Positions 39,708 to 50,811 of a DNA stretch of 64,000 bases are shown in pieces. The notes beneath the pieces were generated by a model. That model worked only from the letters and a program-made list of their open reading frames with translations, was not told the origin of the DNA and made no database searches. The stretch is from Pseudacidobacterium ailaaui (GTDB lineage Bacteria > Acidobacteriota > Terriglobia > Terriglobales > Acidobacteriaceae): assembly GCF_000688455.1 (NCBI RefSeq), contig NZ_JIAL01000001.1:3379001-3443000 (forward strand), in the 5' to 3' direction. Within the stretch, counting starts at the first letter, position 1. Each line of letters opens with the position of its first letter. The position numbers and the translations under genes are program-made.

Positions 39708-41477
39708 ATGTTCAAGGGCCGTTTTCCTGTTTTTCTAGCAATTTTCTTCGGAGTGATCACAACGACGCTGGCTCAGCAGGCGCAGACCACCTCTCAGAAC
39801 CAGAATGTTCCTGATGGCCAGCCGCAATTAAAACAGCGAAGCGATATTCCGGACAACACTGCCAATCCGACCGATTCCCAAGACCCACTGAAGCGCCAGC
39901 TCTCTGACAAAGAACGATTTAAGCAACAAAAAGAGTTAAAGCAGGAGTTAAAAGGCCCTTACAAAAAGTGGGTGGATGAGGACGTCCGCTGGATCATTAC
40001 GGATCAGGAACTGAAGGCATTCAAGAGCCTGAGCAATGATGAAGAACGGGACGCCTTTATTGAACAGTTCTGGCAGCGTCGCAATCCAAATCCCGACTCC
40101 CCCGAGAACGAATACCGCGAAGAACATTATCGCCGCATCGAATATGCAAATGAGCACTTTGCCGCAGGAAAACCGGGTTGGAAGACAGACCGCGGCATGA
40201 TCTACATCAAGTACGGCAAGCCGGATTCCATCGATTCGCACCCGAGCGGTGGAACCTATGACCGCCCAATGGAAGAAGGCGGCGGAACTACGGCGACCTT
40301 CCCTTTCGAGGTATGGCATTACCGATACATTGAAGGTATTGGCGAAAACATTGACATCGAGTTCGTAGACACCTGCATGTGCGGCGATTACCACATGACC
40401 ATCGACCGCTCGGAAAAGGACGCTCTGCTGCATGTTCCAGGAGCGGGCCTGACCCTCTACGAACAGATGGGTATGGCCAAACAGGCTGACCGATTCAAGG
40501 GCGGACTTGAATCACTGGGTAATGGCCCCATGTCCAGCATGCAGCAGAGCAAGCAATTTGACCGCCTTGAGCAATATGCCAAGCTTCAGGCGCCTCCCGT
40601 CATCAAGTTCAAGGACCTCCAGCTTGAATCCTTCATGTCAAACCACAAGCTGATGACAGGTCCCTACTTCCCCTTTGATGTAAGGACGGATTTCGTAAAG
40701 GTCACCGATGATACGGTGCTGGTGCCAATTACGCTCCAGATCAAAAACCGCGATATCACCTTTAATACCAAGGATGGCGTGGCTACCGGCGAAGTCCATA
40801 TTATTGGCCGTGTTTCCACCATTACAGACCGTATCGTGCAGAGTTTTGAGGACACTGTAGAGGTGCAGGAACCAGCCGAGCTGCTTTCCAAGGCCCTCGA
40901 TTACAAACGACTTTACTGGAAAGCGCTTCCTCTGCGCCCGGGACGCTATCGTCTGGATATCGGAATCAAAGACGTGAACAATCCGGACCATCTCGGGGTT
41001 TTTGCCCAGGCCATCAATGTTCCGCGCTATGACGATGACAAACTGGCGGCCTCATCCTTGATCCTGGCCAACCGCATGGAGTTGGTTCCTTCAAAGGAGA
41101 TCGGCGCAGGCAACTTTGTGATTGGCAATACAAAGCTCTTGCCAGCAGTGACAGCGAATCCTACAATTCCTGTGACTTTCCAGCGCTCGCAAAAGCTGAA
41201 TTTCTGGATGCAGGTCTACAATTTGGGAATTGATGAAAAAAGCAAGCAAAACAATGCGACTGTTCAGTACCAAATCATCGACCTTGCGTCTAATAAGGCA
41301 ATTCTGGACATGCAGGAGGACTCGAAGAAACTGGGCGCCAATTCGGATCAGTTGACTCTGGAGCACACTGTTCCCCTGTCTAACCTGCAGCCCGGAAAGT
41401 ACGAACTGAAGATTAAGGTCAACGACAGCATCTCCAACCAAGAGATTGCCCAGTCGGCCAGCTTTACAGTGGAATAA
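39708..41477 (+). CDS. Secreted GWxTD-domain protein
   Basis: A 589-residue exported protein with a signal peptide (FPVFLAIFFGVITTTLAQQ). Residues ~85-170 hold the GWxTD domain: WIITDQELKAFKSLSNDEERDAFIEQFWQRRNP..., HFAAGKPGWKTDRGMIYIKYGKPD. After it come repeated beta-rich segments that end in LSNLQPGKYELKIKVND. GWxTD proteins are widespread in Acidobacteria and related phyla; their activity is not known. The following gene on the same strand, 138 bases on, is an outer-membrane-like protein, and the two may work together. Confidence 0.93.
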   Translation: MFKGRFPVFLAIFFGVITTTLAQQAQTTSQNQNVPDGQPQLKQRSDIPDNTANPTDSQDPLKRQLSDKERFKQQKELKQELKGPYKKWVDEDVRWIITDQELKAFKSLSNDEERDAFIEQFWQRRNPNPDSPENEYREEHYRRIEYANEHFAAGKPGWKTDRGMIYIKYGKPDSIDSHPSGGTYDRPMEEGGGTTATFPFEVWHYRYIEGIGENIDIEFVDTCMCGDYHMTIDRSEKDALLHVPGAGLTLYEQMGMAKQADRFKGGLESLGNGPMSSMQQSKQFDRLEQYAKLQAPPVIKFKDLQLESFMSNHKLMTGPYFPFDVRTDFVKVTDDTVLVPITLQIKNRDITFNTKDGVATGEVHIIGRVSTITDRIVQSFEDTVEVQEPAELLSKALDYKRLYWKALPLRPGRYRLDIGIKDVNNPDHLGVFAQAINVPRYDDDKLAASSLILANRMELVPSKEIGAGNFVIGNTKLLPAVTANPTIPVTFQRSQKLNFWMQVYNLGIDEKSKQNNATVQYQIIDLASNKAILDMQEDSKKLGANSDQLTLEHTVPLSNLQPGKYELKIKVNDSISNQEIAQSASFTVE

Positions 41478-41615
41478 GACCGAGACAATCAGCCACAAGA
41501 GCTGATGTCCTAAAAAAAACACGATTTTGGGGCACGGCCAGGGAGTGTAAAGGGCTGTGTGACGGATCCGCAAGGTCGCCGTCAAAGCAGCCCGACAACG
41601 ACAAAATCGGTGAAG

Positions 41616-43319
41616 ATGACAGTTCCCAATCTGCAAATAAAAATCGGTGCAGTGCTCGCGCTGTTTGCGGCCATGCTGGCATTGCCCGTACACGCGGAAA
41701 ATCCTGCGACTGTTTCCGGGGTGGTCCGCGATGCAAAGGGGACCCCGCAAATAGGAGCACTGGTCGAATTACTCGGCCCAAACCTTTCCGTACTGGCGCA
41801 GACCTTCACGGACAATAAAGGTCGATATTCTCTGGCCGGCATTCAACCAGGCACCTACAACATTAAGGCGACTGGATCGCTCTTCCTGCCGACGCTCCGC
41901 GAAAATCTTCGCGTTCTCGCCAATTCCAGAGTTGTTGTCAATCTCACACTCAACACCCTGTATGAGGCCTTTCGTTGGCTACCGGCACAGCCCCGCCAGG
42001 TCAACGAACCGCAGGACGACTGGACATGGACGCTTAGACTTTCGGCCAACCGTCCCTTGCTGAGACTTCTTGAGGATGGCCCTCTCGTTGTAGTTTCCGA
42101 TGGGGATGGCTCAGCTCCGGCCCTGAAGGCCCGCGTCGTAGTTCGCGGCGGCTCCAACCAATTCGGCGATGGTGGTGTTCATAACGACTTTGAAATTGAG
42201 CATTCTAACGGTGATGGGCAAGCTGTGCTTTTGCGCGCGGACCTGAGCCAACCGGAAAGCGCTGCCGCACTTACTGCAGTTCATGCCTCTCTGGGATATG
42301 CTCGGGACCTTGGCATGGGACGGACCTTCCGCTCCGTGGTGGCCTACCAGGACCAGCCTGGGATCGAAAGCGGGATCCAAGGGCAGGGTATGCAGGCGGT
42401 CATACTCCGCACAGCGGAGACCATGGAGCTCATGGACGGCCTCTCTGCCGAATTTGGAAATGATCTTCAAGCCGTTCATCTGGGACAAAGTCAATTCGCC
42501 AGCCACCCCTTCGGCGGGCTCACTCTGCATACAGAGAGCAATCAGATTTCCTATCATGTAGCCACCTCTCCCGGCGCCCAGCACGCAAGTGAGCTTGACC
42601 GTGAAAATACCCTCATCCCAGCATTGACGGAAAAGAATGGCAAGCTGTTGCTGGAAAGTGGCCTGCACCAGGAACTTTCCGTTGCACATCATGCAGGAAA
42701 TACCAGCATGCGTGTGACATTTTTCCGTGACGACATTTCCCATCCTGCGATTAATGGAGGTGGCACTCTCTCTTTGGCGGACTGGAACAGTGGGAACCTG
42801 CTTTATGACCCCAATACAGATCTGATGAAGGTCGCAGGGCAGAGCTATTCCGGAAATGGTGTGCTGGCAGAGATGAACAGTGAAGTGAACGACGATCTCT
42901 GGATCAACTTTGCATTTGCTTGGGGCAATACTCTGGCCATGGACCATCTTTCCGGACCTGTGACCTTACAGGACGGGATTTCCGACCTGTATCAGCACAG
43001 TGCAGAGATGCTTTCAGCAAGCATGACGGGGAAGATGAAGCATACCGGCACGCAATGGCGTGCATCGTATCGCTGGCAGCCTCAAGATACTGTCACTGTG
43101 GTCGCCCCCTTTGACTCTTCCCTGCCCTCTCCATATCTCAGTCTTTACTTTCGCCAGCCCATACACTGCCACATGCTTCCTTATCGCATGGAAGCCTTGA
43201 TTGACGTGCGCAATCTTCTGGCCCAAGGATACCGACCCTTCGTGACGCGGGACGGTAGCACCCTGTACTTTGCCCAGGCCGAACGAAGCATACAAGGCGG
43301 ACTGGCATTTACCTTCTGA
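41616..43319 (+). CDS. Carboxypeptidase-regulatory-domain outer-membrane barrel-like protein
   Basis: A 567-residue protein with a signal peptide (IGAVLALFAAMLALPVHA), a carboxypeptidase-regulatory-like beta-sandwich at ~30-110 (ATVSGVVRDAKGTPQIGALVELLG ... GRYSLAGIQPGTYNIKATG), then a long region of alternating beta strands ending in aromatic FTF, as expected of an outer-membrane barrel. I see no TonB plug motif between them. The ATG at 41616 is preferred over a GTG at 41559. It may be a relative of TonB-dependent receptors that has lost the plug, paired with the GWxTD gene upstream. Confidence 0.72.
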   Translation: MTVPNLQIKIGAVLALFAAMLALPVHAENPATVSGVVRDAKGTPQIGALVELLGPNLSVLAQTFTDNKGRYSLAGIQPGTYNIKATGSLFLPTLRENLRVLANSRVVVNLTLNTLYEAFRWLPAQPRQVNEPQDDWTWTLRLSANRPLLRLLEDGPLVVVSDGDGSAPALKARVVVRGGSNQFGDGGVHNDFEIEHSNGDGQAVLLRADLSQPESAAALTAVHASLGYARDLGMGRTFRSVVAYQDQPGIESGIQGQGMQAVILRTAETMELMDGLSAEFGNDLQAVHLGQSQFASHPFGGLTLHTESNQISYHVATSPGAQHASELDRENTLIPALTEKNGKLLLESGLHQELSVAHHAGNTSMRVTFFRDDISHPAINGGGTLSLADWNSGNLLYDPNTDLMKVAGQSYSGNGVLAEMNSEVNDDLWINFAFAWGNTLAMDHLSGPVTLQDGISDLYQHSAEMLSASMTGKMKHTGTQWRASYRWQPQDTVTVVAPFDSSLPSPYLSLYFRQPIHCHMLPYRMEALIDVRNLLAQGYRPFVTRDGSTLYFAQAERSIQGGLAFTF

Positions 43320-43736: not shown

Positions 43737-46700
43737 CTAAAACATGACACGAGCTCCAAGCCACATGGTCCGATTTCCAGCATCGGGTCCAAAAAATCCA
43801 CCTGGTTGTGCGGTGCCCGTGATGACGCCGAAATTGTTGTTGGTCCCTGTATTACAGAGCTGTCCTGGTAATGTTGCATTGGCCGGACATGAAACATTCG
43901 GATTCGCAAAATGAGGTGTGTTTGTAAGGCCAAAAGCGTCAGCGCGAACCTGCAAAGTGGCCCACTCTTTTATTTTGAAGTCCCGTACAACACTTAGGTT
44001 CATGTTGAAGAATCCAGGACCGCGAAACTCATTGCGATTCGTGTTTCCATAGTGTGGAGGCGAAATTCCTGCCGGGCATGAGCTCGGATTAGGATTCGTG
44101 CAGATCCACGGCGCCGCAAATGACCGGGGATCAAAATATTCACAACTCGTATCTCCCAGGGCGCAAGTCACGCCTGTTCGAGGCGGTTTTCCATGCGTCA
44201 GGCGGAACGGCTTCACCAGGTCTGCTGTTTGGCTTGAGCCATTTGCATTCAGGTTACCTCCAGCGCTCACGGTAAAAGGACTGCCGCTCATGATGCTTAA
44301 AATTGGATTGATGAGCCAGCCTCCCAGTATTGCGCTGCCAACACCACTTTTTGCCCAAAGACCTTCCTTTCCGAAAGGCAACGCGATTACGCCGGCAAAT
44401 TCAAAATTGTTAGTTCGGTCGAAACCCGCTGGTGCGTAGTTTTTTTCCCAATAATCAGGATAGGGAAAAGACAGAAAGCCTAAGTCTTCATTGTCCGCAT
44501 AATCCATTGCCTTCGACCAAGTATAGGCTGCCCGAATATTTGATCCGCCGGCAAACCGATAGGTCAAACTGCTTTGCAATGAATCGTACCGGCTATGTTT
44601 AAAAGGATTCAGCTTGTTAATTGTTCCCGTGTAGTTGGCACCATAAGCCTGACTCAGAAGACCTCCCGCACTTCCGGCGCCCGGAGCGGAAGCATTTGCG
44701 TTCATATTGACAACAGGTCGGACGGCGTATGTGCCTACATAGCCAATGTTGAAAGTGAAGTTATTTTGTATCTGCTGTTCGACTGTAAAGTTATAGGAAT
44801 GAATGTATCCTCGATGAAACGGGTTGGGCACAGTGGTTGTGCTGATATTTTGGGGTAGAGAGATCATTCCGCTACTTAGGTCGGGCAAAGGCGCCAAGAC
44901 GATTCCGGTTGGAACAGAATAGCTACCGCTTCCAAGCCCGGTTCCGTTTGCGCCTGTCAGACTAGCTGCAGGAATAAAGTCCGCGGTATTCGCAGGGGTA
45001 TTCGTATCCAACAGTACCGACGGATAAGCATTGCGTAAGACATGCCATGTGTAGGGGTCTGCACTCATTCCATATCCTGCGCGTATCACAGTGTCAGGAG
45101 TAGCGCGATAGGCAAGCCCCAAACGGGGTAGGAACTGACCTGATCCTACGTCCATGCCATCATCCCGAGGAACATTCCCGTATCCGCCAAGCAGCACCTT
45201 GCCAGTGGTGAGATCCAGAACGCGGAGACCTTTTCCATTATCGCTATAGCCAAATGGATAAAACTCCCAGCGCACACCATAAGTCAAAGTAAGCCTCGCG
45301 GTGACCTGATAGCGGTCCTGCAAATACCATGCCCACTGTGTCCATCGCAGCGCCGTAGGATTGAAAAGCGCTCTTGCTTTTCCTGTCGTGCTTGGCAGTC
45401 CCAGCAAAAAGTCGGCCCAGGAGTTGAACCAAGTCGGGGTAGATCCCTGCAGTGCTGTTACATTGCCGTTAAACTGGAATGCACCGCGAGGCTGTTGAAA
45501 TGTTCCCCCCTGAGGCTGGAAATGATTGATTTGAGAATGGTTCCATTCGATACCACCCCGGAATCCATGCTTCCCTTTATTCCAGCTCAGATTGGCGCCC
45601 GTTACAAACTGCTGATCACGAAAGAGGAATGGATTTGCGGGCTGTGCATTTCCCAGGCTTGCTCCTCCTGTAGGAAAGGTAAAACCGGGCCAGCCATAGT
45701 AGAGGGAAGGATCTCCAGTAGCTCCGGCATTGTTGGTTCCTGGAATATGGAGTTCATCCAGACCTCTGGCAGAGGTCAGATCGAAGGTGGATCCCAAGCG
45801 CTGGCGGGTAAAACCAAAATTCCAGTCCACTAAAAGGGCGGGAGTGAAGGCGTGGGTTGCTCCAAGTCCCACACTCTGTACAAGCCCGGGGGCATTCCCG
45901 AGCTGTCCACCGTTTGTGGCATCTCCGATGGCAGCGCCTAAAAGGGGCGGATCGTAAACCAGAGTTTTTGAAAAGCTATAGCGCCCGAAAAGTGTTGAGT
46001 TCTGATTTGGTACGTAAGTAACCTTGAAATCTGCATTATCGCGGTTAAAGAGGGCTGTTCCACTTCCTGTCCAGTTATTCAGCCCATTGCTGGTCTGAAA
46101 CTCCTGCGAAATGAGCGGCTGTAACAGCTTGATCATGGTCTGGGCAGCGGGGTCAATTCGATTGGGACAAATGACATTCAACACGCCATTGCAGGAAACC
46201 TGTTGCTTATTTGCGCCGTGCGCATCGCCAGTGGCGGGGTCGTAAATGATTGGGTTGCCGGGCAAATTGCGAAAATCGCCCTGGATCATCGCAGATGTAG
46301 GAAGAGTCCGTGTATCCGGACCAGCCAGTTGTCTTTGGGTCGTGCGTTCATAATCTGCGAAGAAGAACAACTTATCCTTTATGATTGGGCCGCCAAACGC
46401 ACCTCCGAACTGGTTCTGATTATTTCGATTCTTTTTCGGAAAGAGCTTCGGGTCGGTCTGGAAGTAATTTCTCGCCGCAAAATTTTGGTCAGTATGATAT
46501 TCGTGCGCGCTGCCGTGAAATCGATTTGTGCCCGATTTGATCTGCACATTAATGGCGGCCCCACCTGCCATTCCCTGCTCTGCATCAAACGAATTGGTAA
46601 CAACGTTCACAGATTCTATGGCATCTGCCGGAGGAACATAAGCCACATTTGCCGGCAGCCACGGATATGCATCCTGTGCTCCATCAATCCGTGTATTATT

Positions 46701-47312
46701 TCCCTGGTTCGAGAGCCCATTCATATTCGTATTGATGGCTCTCTGCGGATTTCCGGCGAGGGAGTTTGTTTCCGCAGTCAGTCCAGCTCCCGGGATGGTA
46801 CGAAGCAAGGACTGAAAATTTGCCCCCTGAGATCCCATAATGGGCAGATTCTCTATTTCCCGCGATGTCAGGTCTGTATGTACATCTGCTTTGTCTGTCT
46901 GAAGAATGGGAGGGGCCGTTGTTACAGTAATGCTCTGCGTAGCCGAGGCCACTTTCAGTTGAGCGTCCAGCCTGGTGACTTCATTGGCACGTACAGCGAC
47001 ATTCGTCGTTTCCTGTGTAGCAAACCCTGAAGAAACCACAGTAATTTTGTAACTTCCTGGCAATAAAGTTGAAAACCGGTAGATCCCATTAGAATCCGTA
47101 GTCGTAGTCTGACTCGTTCCCGTATGTACATCTAAAGCTGTAACTTGTACTGCATTGATCGCCGCGCCGCTGCTGTCTGTAACGGTACCGGTCAGCGATC
47201 CATACAAGACCTGCGCAGATGACCGCTGCACGAAGCTGCAATTCCACAGCAACAAGCAGAGCAACATGCTGCATTTCAAAAACCAATTGTGTTTTCTGCG
47301 AACCCTCTTCAT
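43737..47312 (-). CDS. Oar-like TonB-dependent receptor with carboxypeptidase-regulatory domain
   Basis: A 1191-residue outer-membrane protein. Signal peptide (FLKCSMLLCLLLWNCSFVQRSSAQ), then a carboxypeptidase-regulatory beta-sandwich (~38-120: LTGTVTDSSGAAINAVQVTAL ... LPGSYKITVVSSGF), a plug region (REIENLPIMGSQGANFQSLL, SFDAEQGMAGGAAINVQIKSGTN) and a large barrel from about residue 260 with FFADYERT and ending in RTMWLGARVMF. This Oar-like type, common in Acidobacteria, imports large substrates such as oligosaccharides. ATG 47312 has GGAGG five bases upstream; a TTG at 47324 is rejected. Divergent from the SDR-ROK-ManD operon, so a uronate-containing glycan is the likely ligand. Confidence 0.93.
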   Translation of the reverse strand: MKRVRRKHNWFLKCSMLLCLLLWNCSFVQRSSAQVLYGSLTGTVTDSSGAAINAVQVTALDVHTGTSQTTTTDSNGIYRFSTLLPGSYKITVVSSGFATQETTNVAVRANEVTRLDAQLKVASATQSITVTTAPPILQTDKADVHTDLTSREIENLPIMGSQGANFQSLLRTIPGAGLTAETNSLAGNPQRAINTNMNGLSNQGNNTRIDGAQDAYPWLPANVAYVPPADAIESVNVVTNSFDAEQGMAGGAAINVQIKSGTNRFHGSAHEYHTDQNFAARNYFQTDPKLFPKKNRNNQNQFGGAFGGPIIKDKLFFFADYERTTQRQLAGPDTRTLPTSAMIQGDFRNLPGNPIIYDPATGDAHGANKQQVSCNGVLNVICPNRIDPAAQTMIKLLQPLISQEFQTSNGLNNWTGSGTALFNRDNADFKVTYVPNQNSTLFGRYSFSKTLVYDPPLLGAAIGDATNGGQLGNAPGLVQSVGLGATHAFTPALLVDWNFGFTRQRLGSTFDLTSARGLDELHIPGTNNAGATGDPSLYYGWPGFTFPTGGASLGNAQPANPFLFRDQQFVTGANLSWNKGKHGFRGGIEWNHSQINHFQPQGGTFQQPRGAFQFNGNVTALQGSTPTWFNSWADFLLGLPSTTGKARALFNPTALRWTQWAWYLQDRYQVTARLTLTYGVRWEFYPFGYSDNGKGLRVLDLTTGKVLLGGYGNVPRDDGMDVGSGQFLPRLGLAYRATPDTVIRAGYGMSADPYTWHVLRNAYPSVLLDTNTPANTADFIPAASLTGANGTGLGSGSYSVPTGIVLAPLPDLSSGMISLPQNISTTTVPNPFHRGYIHSYNFTVEQQIQNNFTFNIGYVGTYAVRPVVNMNANASAPGAGSAGGLLSQAYGANYTGTINKLNPFKHSRYDSLQSSLTYRFAGGSNIRAAYTWSKAMDYADNEDLGFLSFPYPDYWEKNYAPAGFDRTNNFEFAGVIALPFGKEGLWAKSGVGSAILGGWLINPILSIMSGSPFTVSAGGNLNANGSSQTADLVKPFRLTHGKPPRTGVTCALGDTSCEYFDPRSFAAPWICTNPNPSSCPAGISPPHYGNTNRNEFRGPGFFNMNLSVVRDFKIKEWATLQVRADAFGLTNTPHFANPNVSCPANATLPGQLCNTGTNNNFGVITGTAQPGGFFGPDAGNRTMWLGARVMF

Positions 47313-47369
47313 TACCGCCTCCAAGCCATATCCTGCTATGTGCGCACCGGGCCTCGTGGGGCCTAAAAT

Positions 47370-47381
47370 TAAATCAATTTA
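47370..47381. promoter_or_regulatory. 12-base palindrome downstream of the receptor promoter
   Basis: TAAAT-CA-ATTTA is an inverted repeat just past the predicted transcription start of the TonB receptor gene, where a bound repressor would block transcription. The ROK-family regulator encoded in the divergent operon is the natural candidate, but this assignment is inference. Confidence 0.4.
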
Positions 47382-47394
47382 GTACGCGATGCGA

Positions 47395-47424
47395 ACTATA
47401 TTGATTCCTCCGAAGGATTGTCAA
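47395..47424 (-). promoter_or_regulatory. Promoter of the TonB receptor gene
   Basis: On the minus strand a perfect TTGACA (47424-47419) is followed, after 18 bases, by TATAGT (47400-47395), placing the start of transcription near 47388 and leaving a leader of about 75 bases. It is the best sigma-70-type match I found in the window. Confidence 0.75.
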
Positions 47425-47591
47425 CTGGATTTTTTTTGATCCCAGGCAGTCAGAACTGAAGCCTTGTCCAAAGAAAAATCCTGTTTATTTAAGATCCGAA
47501 GCAGTTTCTTCTTTTCAGCAATCGCATTACACTGGATTTTCGCTTTATTGCAAACTTTATTGAGTCTAATCAAACCTTTGTCTGGAGCTGC

Positions 47592-48368
47592 ATGAACCCG
47601 TGCATTTTTGATTTGAAAGGAAGAACGGCCGTTGTGATCGGGGGCACGTCGGGCATAGGCCGCTCGATTGCGCTGGGACTGGCCAAGGCCGGGGCCGACG
47701 TTGTCGCTTCTTCTCGACACTTAGAGGATGTTGAAAAGACATCCGCAGAAATCCAGGCACAAGGCAGAAATAGTCTGGCAGTTACGGTCGATGTACGGGA
47801 CCGTACTTCATTACAGGCCCTTCACGATAAGGTGTTGGAAAGATTCGGCAGAGTAGACATTCTGGTGAATTCTGCCGGGACCACGACTCGCATCTCTACC
47901 CTTGACTGCTCAGAGGACGATTGGAACCTGGTTCTGGAAACAAACCTGACTGGGACATTTCGTTCCTGCCAGATATTTGGGCGCACCATGCAGGCACAGC
48001 GGTATGGAAGGATCATCAATATTGCTTCTCTGGCTACCTTCGTTGCTTTTCACGAAGTGGCTGCGTACGGGGCAAGCAAGGCTGCTGTTGCTTCCCTTAC
48101 CCGCTCGCTGGCGATTGAGCTGGCCCGCGACGGCGTTTGTGTGAATGCTATTGCTCCTGGAATTTTTCCAACATCCTTGAATGCTGACCTTCTTGACAGC
48201 ACTCCTCGCGGGCATGAGATGCACATGCGAATCCCGATGCAACGCTTCGGGCATACGGACGAATTGATCGGCGCGGCGATTTTTCTTGCTTCCGATGCCG
48301 CTTCGTACGTAAACGGACAGGTCATCGTGGTCGACGGAGGATATCTTGCCAGCGGAGTGAATCAGTAA
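47592..48368 (+). CDS. SDR-family oxidoreductase (likely uronate-pathway ketose/aldonate dehydrogenase)
   Basis: A 258-residue short-chain dehydrogenase. The cofactor loop is VIGGTSGIGRS (~15-25), then NSAG, the catalytic serine in NIASLATFV and Y159/K163 in YGASK, ending with the family's YVNGQVIVVDGGY. SSRHLEDVEKT after the second strand, with an arginine, leans toward NADP(H), not proven. The fold and FDLKGRTAVV start resemble gluconate 5-dehydrogenase and fructuronate reductase-like SDRs. Followed by a ROK regulator and mannonate dehydratase, it may reduce a keto-uronate to D-mannonate. GGAG lies six bases before the ATG. Confidence 0.88.
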   Translation: MNPCIFDLKGRTAVVIGGTSGIGRSIALGLAKAGADVVASSRHLEDVEKTSAEIQAQGRNSLAVTVDVRDRTSLQALHDKVLERFGRVDILVNSAGTTTRISTLDCSEDDWNLVLETNLTGTFRSCQIFGRTMQAQRYGRIINIASLATFVAFHEVAAYGASKAAVASLTRSLAIELARDGVCVNAIAPGIFPTSLNADLLDSTPRGHEMHMRIPMQRFGHTDELIGAAIFLASDAASYVNGQVIVVDGGYLASGVNQ

Positions 48369-48442
48369 TCCAGAGTCATTCCGGTGTACATTGGACAAAA
48401 GACGGGAAAGACTTGGGACGCATAGGACAAACAGGAAAAGGA

Positions 48443-49606
48443 ATGCGGCATGTGGACCTGACCTCGGCCGAACTGGCATCGAGTGAAACGGCCCGCCACA
48501 TTAACCGAGACATTATTCTGCAACTGATCCGGACACGCCAGCCCATCTCTCGGGCCGACTTGGCACGCATCTCAGGGCTTCAGCGCAGCACTGTTTCACA
48601 GATCATTGAGCAATTGCTAGAGGAGCGTTGGGTGCGCGAAGGCGCGCTGGCACATCTGCCCCGTGGGCGGCGACCCACTCTTGTTCACCTGAATGACGAT
48701 TTAGTTGTCCTCGCAGCCGATATTCATCCACGGCAGGCAACAGTAGCGCTCGTAGATCTGAATGGACGCCTGCTGTCCCGGTCTACACTGCCTATCGGTA
48801 CAAATCCGGCGAAGGCCCTTCACGCCATCACGGAGTGCATGAAACGTATTTGTGATGCGCATCCTAAAAAGTCGATTGAGGGCATAGGCGTCAGTCTTCC
48901 GGGACGTGTGGATCCGAAGACGCAGCGTCTGGTTTTTGCACCGAACCTGCATTGGCCAGACTTCGACATTAAAGGCACGATCGAACGTGAGATGCATCTC
49001 CATACTGAGATGGAAAATGCCGCCACGGCCTGTCTACTCTCTGAGCTCTGGTTTGGCAGAATGGACGGCATTCGTGATGCGGTGTTGATTACGGTCTCAG
49101 AAGGCATCGGCTCTGGTGTAATGACCAATGGACAGATCGTCTCCGGCAGAAATGGGATGGCCGGAGAATTTGGTCATGTTCCGCTCGATCCCTCCGGACC
49201 GCGCTGCGCCTGTAATGCGAATGGGTGCTGGGAAATGTTTGCCTCCTGTAATGCAGCCCTGCGCTACTATAGCGAGCTTGATCCAAGGGGAAAACGCATC
49301 ACATTCCACGAGCTCCTGAGCCTTGCGGAAGAGGGCAATACACGCGCTATCGACGCTCTGAGTAAACAAGCACGGTATCTCGGCAAGGGACTACGCACAG
49401 TGATTGCTGGCCTTTCACCGGAAGTCATTCTGGTTGCTGGCGATGTGACCTCAGCCTGGGCACGTTTTGCTCCGCTGGTGGAAGCGGAAATCAAATATGC
49501 TGTTCTGGCCGGACATCCACCCCAGCTTCTTCCAACTCATGAGGGCGATGTGGCCCGTCTTCGCGGCGCTGCCGCATTACTTTTGCAAAGGCATTCTGTT
49601 TCATGA
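48443..49606 (+). CDS. ROK-family transcriptional regulator
   Basis: A 387-residue NagC/XylR-type protein: an N-terminal winged helix (~15-80: [41 protein letters not shown]) and a sugar-binding ROK fold with [36 protein letters not shown] and [15 protein letters not shown]. The zinc site [21 protein letters not shown] keeps the histidine and three cysteines but has Asn where CxCG usually has Gly. It probably senses a sugar acid and controls this operon and the divergent receptor. ATG 48443 is preferred, with AGGA upstream; the stop overlaps manD by ATGA. Confidence 0.92.
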
Positions 49607-50811
49607 AGATTACTCGCGCTTGGGTCAATATCTGCTCTCCGGGACGTAATTTCGTTACCCTCAAAGTAGAAACCGACGAAGGCTTTTACGGACTGGGCGA
49701 TGCGACGCTTAATGGCCGGGAGATGGCGGTCGCCAGTTATCTTACCGAGCATGTGGTCCCCTGCATCATCGGGCGCGACCCTTTCCAGACTGAGGACATC
49801 TGGCAATATCTCTATCGTGGAGCATATTGGCGGCGTGGACCAGTCACCATGGCAGCCATCGCTGCCGTGGATGTCGCACTATGGGACATCAAGGGTAAAG
49901 CACTCCAAACTCCTGTTTATAACCTGCTGGGCGGCAAGAGTCGGGAAGGCGTGCTTGTGTATGCGCATGCGCATGGCAATTCTACTGAAGAAGTAATCGC
50001 TGATGTTCAAAAACATATGGAAATGGGTTACCTCGCCGTGCGCGCGCAGAGCGCCATTCCTGGACTTGATTCTACCTATGGTGTTCCGAAAAAAGCACAA
50101 CCCTATGAGCCTGCCGAGCGCGGTCTGCCTTCTGAAAGCCGATGGTCGTCGGAGCTGTATCTGCGGCACACTCCGAGGCTGTTTGAGAAATTGCGTGCGG
50201 CAATCGGGGAAGATGTGCATCTGCTGCACGATGTTCATCACCGCCTGACACCAATCGAGGCAGCCCGACTGGGCAAAGAGCTTGAGCCGTTTCACCTCTT
50301 CTGGATGGAAGATCCTGTCCCGGCTGAGCTGCAAGAGGGCTTCAAAATCATCCGTGAGCACACCACTACTCCGGTTGCTACGGGCGAGGTCTTCCACAGC
50401 ATCTGGGACGCCCATGATTTAATTCGCAACCAGTGGATCGACTACATCCGCATGTCTGTCGTCCATTCCGGTGGGCTGACGCATTTAAAAAAGGTCGCTG
50501 ACTTTGCCTCTCTTTATCATGTCCGAACCGGATGCCACGGAGCTACAGACCTTTCGCCTGTAACGATGGCCGCTGCCTTGCACTTTGGCATCGCTGTGCA
50601 TAACTTTGGGATTCAGGAACACATGCCACATTCAGCAGAAACAAATGCTGTCTTTCCTCACGCATATTCCTTCAAAGCTGGATATATGTATCCCGGCGAT
50701 GCTCCAGGACTAGGCGTAGACCTGGATGAAAGCCTCGCAAAAAAGTATCCATACCAGCGGGCCTACCTGCCCATCAACCGGAGACTGGATGGAACGCTTA
50801 CAGACTGGTAA
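49603..50811 (+). CDS. manD: D-mannonate dehydratase ManD (enolase superfamily)
   Basis: A 402-residue enolase-superfamily enzyme that dehydrates D-mannonate (in some members D-gluconate) to 2-keto-3-deoxygluconate. Every key residue lies at the number known for characterised ManD: metal ligands Asp210 (HDVHH), Glu236 (WMEDP) and Glu262 (TGEVF), the base Tyr159 with Arg147 (AVRAQ), and His212. The C-terminus [21 protein letters not shown] is also typical. It starts by ATGA overlap with the ROK gene, so it is translationally coupled. The remaining steps to pyruvate (KdgK, KDPG aldolase) are not in the window. Confidence 0.96.

Follow-up and report, generated by a model that had tools for sequence, protein, structure and literature searches.

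A predicted D-glucuronate catabolic operon and its divergent outer-membrane receptor gene in Pseudacidobacterium ailaaui

Results

A receptor gene diverges from an SDR-ROK-ManD operon

The window analyzed here, 64,000 nucleotides covering positions 3379001-3443000 of the 3.69 Mb single-contig genome of the acidobacterium Pseudacidobacterium ailaaui, holds a block of four genes that encode an Oar-like outer-membrane receptor and, divergently from it, a short-chain dehydrogenase/reductase (SDR), a ROK-family regulator and the dehydratase ManD (Table 1). All four open reading frames lie where the original prediction, made from the sequence without database searches, had placed them, and profile searches confirm their families. 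The divergent receptor and SDR genes are separated by 267 bp and the SDR and ROK genes by 44 bp, and the ROK and ManD genes overlap by 4 bp. We consider it probable that these genes serve glucuronoxylan utilization as its D-glucuronate arm. The main new point is the synteny of the receptor's orthologs with genes for the α-glucuronidase GH67, ROK, SDR and ManD.

Table 1. Features of the divergent block, with coordinates in the window.
Feature	Coordinates	Strand	Remarks
Receptor, Oar/SusC-like	43737..47324	-	CarboxypepD_reg, plug-like stretch, OMP_b-brl_4 barrel (Pfam); orthologs in GH67/ROK/SDR loci
Divergent intergenic region	47325..47591	.	Promoters of both transcription units and a regulator site presumed here, from position only
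SDR oxidoreductase	47592..48368	+	Predicted D-fructuronate reductase (UxaD/UxuB role); YGASK at residue 159
ROK-family transcriptional regulator	48413..49606	+	Winged helix-turn-helix and ROK domain; ten-residue motif
ManD, D-mannonate dehydratase	49603..50811	+	Enolase superfamily; Ala at 314

ManD reaches 700.5 bits with the curated equivalog model for D-mannonate dehydratase (NF043051, cut-off 550), and the proteins closest to it in named collections belong to Acidobacteriota. Residues R147, Y159, D210, H212, E236, E262, H312, E339 and W402 are all present. We take D210, E236 and E262 to be the metal ligands and R147, Y159 and H212 to be catalytic. The claim that these residues are retained holds at the numbers given for them, which are presumably also those of the Novosphingobium enzyme. 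Solved ManD proteins (PDB 4fi4, 3thu, 3ow1, 2qjj) align over residues 2-402 or 1-402 with identical active-site residues.

The SDR matches adh_short_C2 (219 bits, Pfam) and has the YxxxK and glycine-rich motifs, and the regulator combines a ROK domain (193 bits) with an N-terminal winged helix-turn-helix, as in repressors of the NagC/Mlc/XylR type. The receptor matches OMP_b-brl_4 with 655 bits as well as CarboxypepD_reg, narrowly passes TonB_dep_Rec_b-barrel (27.8 bits, cut-off 27), and stays under the threshold for the Plug domain (21.5 bits against 23.9). Its listed start codon is TTG; an in-frame ATG at 47312 opens a stretch that by eye resembles a signal peptide and is probably the true start. 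A structure model of the receptor built from seven sequences was too poor for use (mean pLDDT 35.0), and a search of solved structures returned only short carboxypeptidase- or scaffoldin-like stretches. Pfam scans of 15 proteins of the window revealed no SusD-like partner, the remaining window genes not being covered.

The SDR often accompanies ManD in Acidobacteriota

Conservation of the block was followed in 61 genomes (this one and 60 relatives) and in a set of ManD loci comprising 54 distinct acidobacterial loci other than the window and 43 loci of other phyla. Neighbors were counted by tblastn with bit thresholds, keeping the best match per locus. Gene orders were taken from homology-weighted calling, since length-based calling hid real genes; the homology-weighted caller itself missed some SDR genes.

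Across the 61 genomes, ManD exceeds its cut-off in 20, UxaC is present in 30, GH67 in 24 (fragments included), UxuA above cut-off in 14, and Mannitol_dh, the classical fructuronate reductase family, in 3. All 20 ManD genomes carry the SDR clade (E < 1e-79), as do 12 of the remaining 41, a difference with Fisher p 3.8e-8 when kinship is ignored. UxaC and GH67 are likewise frequent in ManD genomes (17/20 against 13/41, and 15/20 against 9/41), and no link is seen between ManD and UxuA (6/20 against 8/41). Among the 20 ManD genomes, 19 gave no match to Mannitol_dh.

At 34 of the 54 acidobacterial loci, ManD has a close relative of the window SDR within 5 kb; in 23 cases the two genes share a strand and are no more than 300 bp apart. 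Because the clade has only one or two copies per genome, the estimated chance of such proximity is below 1%, and the recurrence indicates that the grouping is beyond chance. Within the same distance in these 54 loci are KDG (2-keto-3-deoxygluconate) kinase-like genes (14), Eda (14), major facilitator superfamily (MFS) transporters (10), GH67 (9) and UxaC (5). The SDR is also linked to UxaC: of 23 genomes with both, 12 have them within 5 kb of each other, and in G039, G040, G045 and G047 they are under 300 bp apart.

Set against the solved ManD proteins, the genomic partners differ. The 43 loci of other phyla have GH67 (15), MFS (12) and UxaC (4) within 5 kb of ManD and no SDR of at least 230 bits nearby. 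In three Bacteroidota loci (L038, L054, L056), however, the gene directly upstream of ManD encodes a less similar SDR, 33-38% identical to that of the window, so the SDR-ManD pairing may exceed one phylum.

In a tree of the SDRs, the window protein pairs with the ManD-linked SDR of locus L002 (support 98/91) and falls outside a group that collects the seven SDRs linked to UxaE or LarA (support 96/35, of which the latter value is weak). The 33 ManD-linked rows are not gathered in a single group, and the branch of L033_847 is very long.

Receptor orthologs are syntenic with GH67, ROK, SDR and ManD

The barrel family of the receptor has 71 matching stretches in this genome, so adjacency alone means little. 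Orthologs of this particular receptor were found in three other loci. They are 70% (L180), 42% (L011) and 36% (L025) identical to it, compared with 33, 30 and 28% for the next paralog among the 40 own paralogs compared; the corresponding scores are 1697, 756 and 635 bits, against 488, 423 and 366 for the next best of the 41 own sequences. Gene orders at these loci are GH10, GH67, ROK, receptor, SDR, GDSL esterase in L180, where ROK and SDR are 53% and 63% identical to their window counterparts, and SDR, ROK, receptor, GH67, ManD in L011. In L025 the receptor and ROK genes are on one strand and SDR and ManD on the other, and a further locus, L123, has the order SDR, ROK, GH67, ManD. Genomic context supports the original prediction to the extent that the operon would serve uronate catabolism, with ROK as its regulator and the receptor associated with it.

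A palindrome shared upstream of the ROK-containing operons was sought and not found; one perfect palindrome, present only in L180, precedes the GH10 gene.

Enzymes for the remaining predicted steps are encoded elsewhere

Every enzyme family of the glucuronate route is encoded in the genome. A single copy of UxaC (1242033-1243466; 586.8 bits with the glucuronate isomerase model NF002794, cut-off 387) has as neighbors an MFS gene and, divergently oriented, a gene for a GntR/FCD regulator. GH67, with its N-terminal, middle and C-terminal domains and a signal-like N-terminus, is at 1502240-1504747, and a PfkB-type kinase and Eda (183 bits, cut-off 156) are at 2943728-2945591. The proposed compact route from import to KDG did not stand, because UxaC, the MFS transporter, GH67, the PfkB kinase and Eda all lie away from the block. 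Searches of this genome gave no match to UxuA or Mannitol_dh, the same searches matching 5 and 7 of 14 control genomes, respectively. As neither family was found, the strongest candidate for a fructuronate reductase is the window SDR.

Two of these distant loci hold further genes of related kinds. The gene beside GH67 (L163:6576-8171) has a weak GH79_N match (27.4 bits, threshold 23.1) and possibly encodes another glucuronidase. The PfkB kinase and Eda genes are in a row with that of a more distant SDR (L165:8229-10976), 44% identical to the window SDR, which may be of KduD type.

A second cluster at 1634167-1637651 (L164:9168-12652) encodes in a row an SDR 67% identical to the window SDR, UxaE (159 bits with PF16257) and a LarA protein of group 18 (659.9 bits with NF052594, cut-off 500). 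Galacturonate is more likely processed by way of UxaE in this separate cluster, which could feed it into the route; UxaA was outside the searches. By clustering, LarA, UxaE and SDR proteins of these kinds are also encoded together with UxaC and an MFS protein in G001, G009, G031 and G033; G032 has the same set except for UxaE.

Discussion

A predicted route from glucuronoxylan to central metabolism

From the families encoded and the company they keep, the following route can be drawn. The receptor would import aldouronic xylo-oligosaccharides, that is, those bearing glucuronic acid. An exported GH67 α-glucuronidase would free (4-O-methyl)glucuronate, which the MFS transporter would carry into the cell. 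UxaC would convert glucuronate to D-fructuronate, the window SDR would reduce this to D-mannonate, and ManD would dehydrate D-mannonate to KDG, from which the PfkB-type kinase and Eda would form pyruvate and glyceraldehyde phosphate. The ROK protein would act as a repressor of both the receptor gene and the operon until a xylan-derived sugar or a uronate binds. Uptake of uronate glycans in general had been proposed; uptake of such a glycan remains the prediction, narrowed to glucuronoxylan, with GH67 and GH10 linked to the block's genes in relatives. No alginate or pectin genes were identified among the recurring neighbors, with the limits that alginate and pectin lyases were not searched for and that other neighbor clusters are unidentified.

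Several observations weigh against this account. Some concern proteins encoded outside the block: with Pfam UxaC the genome's own copy scores low (266 bits), a type seen in 13 of the 30 UxaC genomes, the other 17 having copies of 552-667 bits; the MFS protein beside it reaches 247.7 of the 395 bits asked by its best model; and the PfkB kinase falls under every KDG-kinase cut-off. The route does not account for how xylan-derived glucuronate would lose its 4-O-methyl group. The association is also incomplete. No SDR match lies within 5 kb of ManD in 20 of the 54 acidobacterial loci (best match per locus only, and several contigs are short), and ROK is in the covered flank of only 4 of the 54 and the receptor in that of 2. 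Of the 30 UxaC genomes, 7 are without the SDR clade, and Mannitol_dh is present in only one of these (G059). In the sister genome G001, whose ManD is 90% identical, the 19 kb surrounding ManD gave no match to SDR, ROK or receptor; GH67 is there a partial match only (L181:8849-9871, corresponding to residues 417-760 of the P. ailaaui GH67, 45% identical). It is as if SDR, ROK, receptor and GH67 came as a set.

Alternative explanations

The SDR might be KduD (KDG 5-dehydrogenase), a gluconate 5-dehydrogenase or a glucose dehydrogenase, and the operon might serve pectin, gluconate or glucose. Its top NCBIfam scores are indeed with KduD models (242.9 and 242.1 bits) and a gluconate 5-dehydrogenase model (240.6 bits), all below the respective cut-offs of 369, 338.85 and 279. 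Among its 25 best models it passes one curated cut-off, that of the broad 'glucose 1-dehydrogenase' subfamily NF005559 (230.6 against 215), and the D-mannonate oxidoreductase model PRK08277 gives 224.3 bits, under its cut-off of 281. Solved relatives bear KduD, gluconate 5-dehydrogenase or glucose dehydrogenase kinds of names. Because the specific family models stay below cut-off, naming of the SDR rests on gap filling and genomic context. These speak for the uronate pathway: in relatives the SDR neighbors ManD, UxaC, GH67 and UxaE (KduI was not searched for), and without Mannitol_dh, fructuronate reduction would otherwise depend solely on the paralog at 1634k, which could perform the same step. 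We regard a KduD, gluconate or glucose role as quite unlikely, and the window SDR as a likely fructuronate reductase in place of classical UxuB, in line with what had been proposed.

That the receptor is an unrelated neighbor, with SDR, ROK and ManD alone forming a unit, seems to us unlikely. It is encoded on the opposite strand, a chance neighbor from this family comes easily with 71 stretches in the genome, most ManD loci are without ROK and receptor, and the large receptors near ManD in L023, L026, L027 and L034 have best matches other than the window receptor and are not its orthologs. Against these stand the orthologs in L011, L025 and L180, far closer to the window receptor than the 40 own paralogs compared are, which adjoin ROK with SDR or GH67 near. 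The role of the receptor as an importer of glucuronoxylan oligosaccharides is predicted from this synteny, and it is both the most useful and the least certain part of the account.

A third alternative concerns ManD, which might be of low efficiency or active on gluconate, and act, for example, after a LarA-type epimerase that makes mannonate from gluconate. The ManD subgroup reportedly includes low-efficiency members (Wichelecki 2014), and the genome does encode a LarA group-18 putative hexonate epimerase. ManD-linked genes in other genomes, on the other hand, are those for GH67, UxaC, KDG-kinase-like proteins and Eda. At position 314 the window ManD has Ala, like its two nearest solved relatives, and the Chromohalobacter enzyme has Pro; this Ala/Pro exchange sets the solved Chromohalobacter protein 4k2s apart from 3ow1 and 4f4r. 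Ala at this position presumably goes with efficient enzymes, an indirect sign at most. On balance we think a low-efficiency or gluconate-directed ManD very unlikely, and keep the assignment to D-mannonate.

We put forward more tentatively a wider proposal, which we hold to be possible if doubtful: that the receptor family includes a dedicated, SusD-less aldouronate importer traceable by its synteny with ROK, SDR, GH67 and ManD, and that LarA group 18 is a D-mannonate/D-gluconate 2-epimerase providing a second exit for mannonate formed from fructuronate, used alone in genomes such as G032. That genome has a UxaC-MFS-LarA-SDR cluster and neither ManD above cut-off nor UxuA (other dehydratases not being searched). 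LarA groups 18-20 are distinguished in PMC7583248, which guesses that group 18 acts on a hexonate, and gluconate 2-epimerases are described in PMC11770544. The SDR-UxaE-LarA clusters offer a lead to the substrate of group 18.

Relation to known systems

Most steps of the proposed route are of known kind. The isomerase route of Escherichia coli (UxaC-UxuB-UxuA-KdgK-Eda; PMC6353982) has the same intermediates, namely glucuronate, fructuronate, mannonate, KDG and KDPG (2-keto-3-deoxy-6-phosphogluconate); unlike it, P. ailaaui has the enolase-superfamily ManD for UxuA and the proposed SDR for the Mannitol_dh-family UxuB. An SDR in this role also has a precedent in UxaD of Thermotoga maritima, which has mannonate oxidoreductase activity (PMC5673643) and belongs to a UxaE-UxaD-GntE regulon (PMC7953866). 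UxaD, UxaE and a LarA-type epimerase are the three kinds found in the second cluster here, the LarA protein being of group 18 and that of T. maritima of group 20 (PMC7583248). What differs from T. maritima is the extra, ManD-linked SDR copy with ROK and an outer-membrane receptor. The glucuronoxylan genes aguX-uxuB-uxuA of Caldicellulosiruptor bescii (PMC8579813) similarly join a glucuronidase with fructuronate and mannonate enzymes under a xylan regulator; C. bescii has an ABC transporter and UxuA, whereas here there are an outer-membrane receptor and ManD, with GH67 outside the operon.

To our knowledge, outer-membrane receptors of this kind rarely have a known ligand. Ligand prediction from synteny makes one member of the 71-stretch family testable, and the SDR is a clear candidate for reducing fructuronate in a lineage whose genomes seldom have the classical family (Mannitol_dh in 3 of 61). 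In a limited library, we found no paper joining Acidobacteria, glucuronoxylan and a TonB-dependent receptor, nor one joining carboxypeptidase regulatory-like domains and a TonB-dependent receptor.

Genes around the block

Genes scanned on either side of the four encode proteins of different kinds: Lon, an HlyD-like protein, a GWxTD protein, a carboxypeptidase-regulatory-like protein, an ADOP permease, succinate dehydrogenase subunits and a homocysteine methyltransferase/MTHFR protein. Adjoining the block at window positions 39708-43319 are the gene for the GWxTD-domain protein and then that for the carboxypeptidase regulatory-like domain protein, to which we assign no role.

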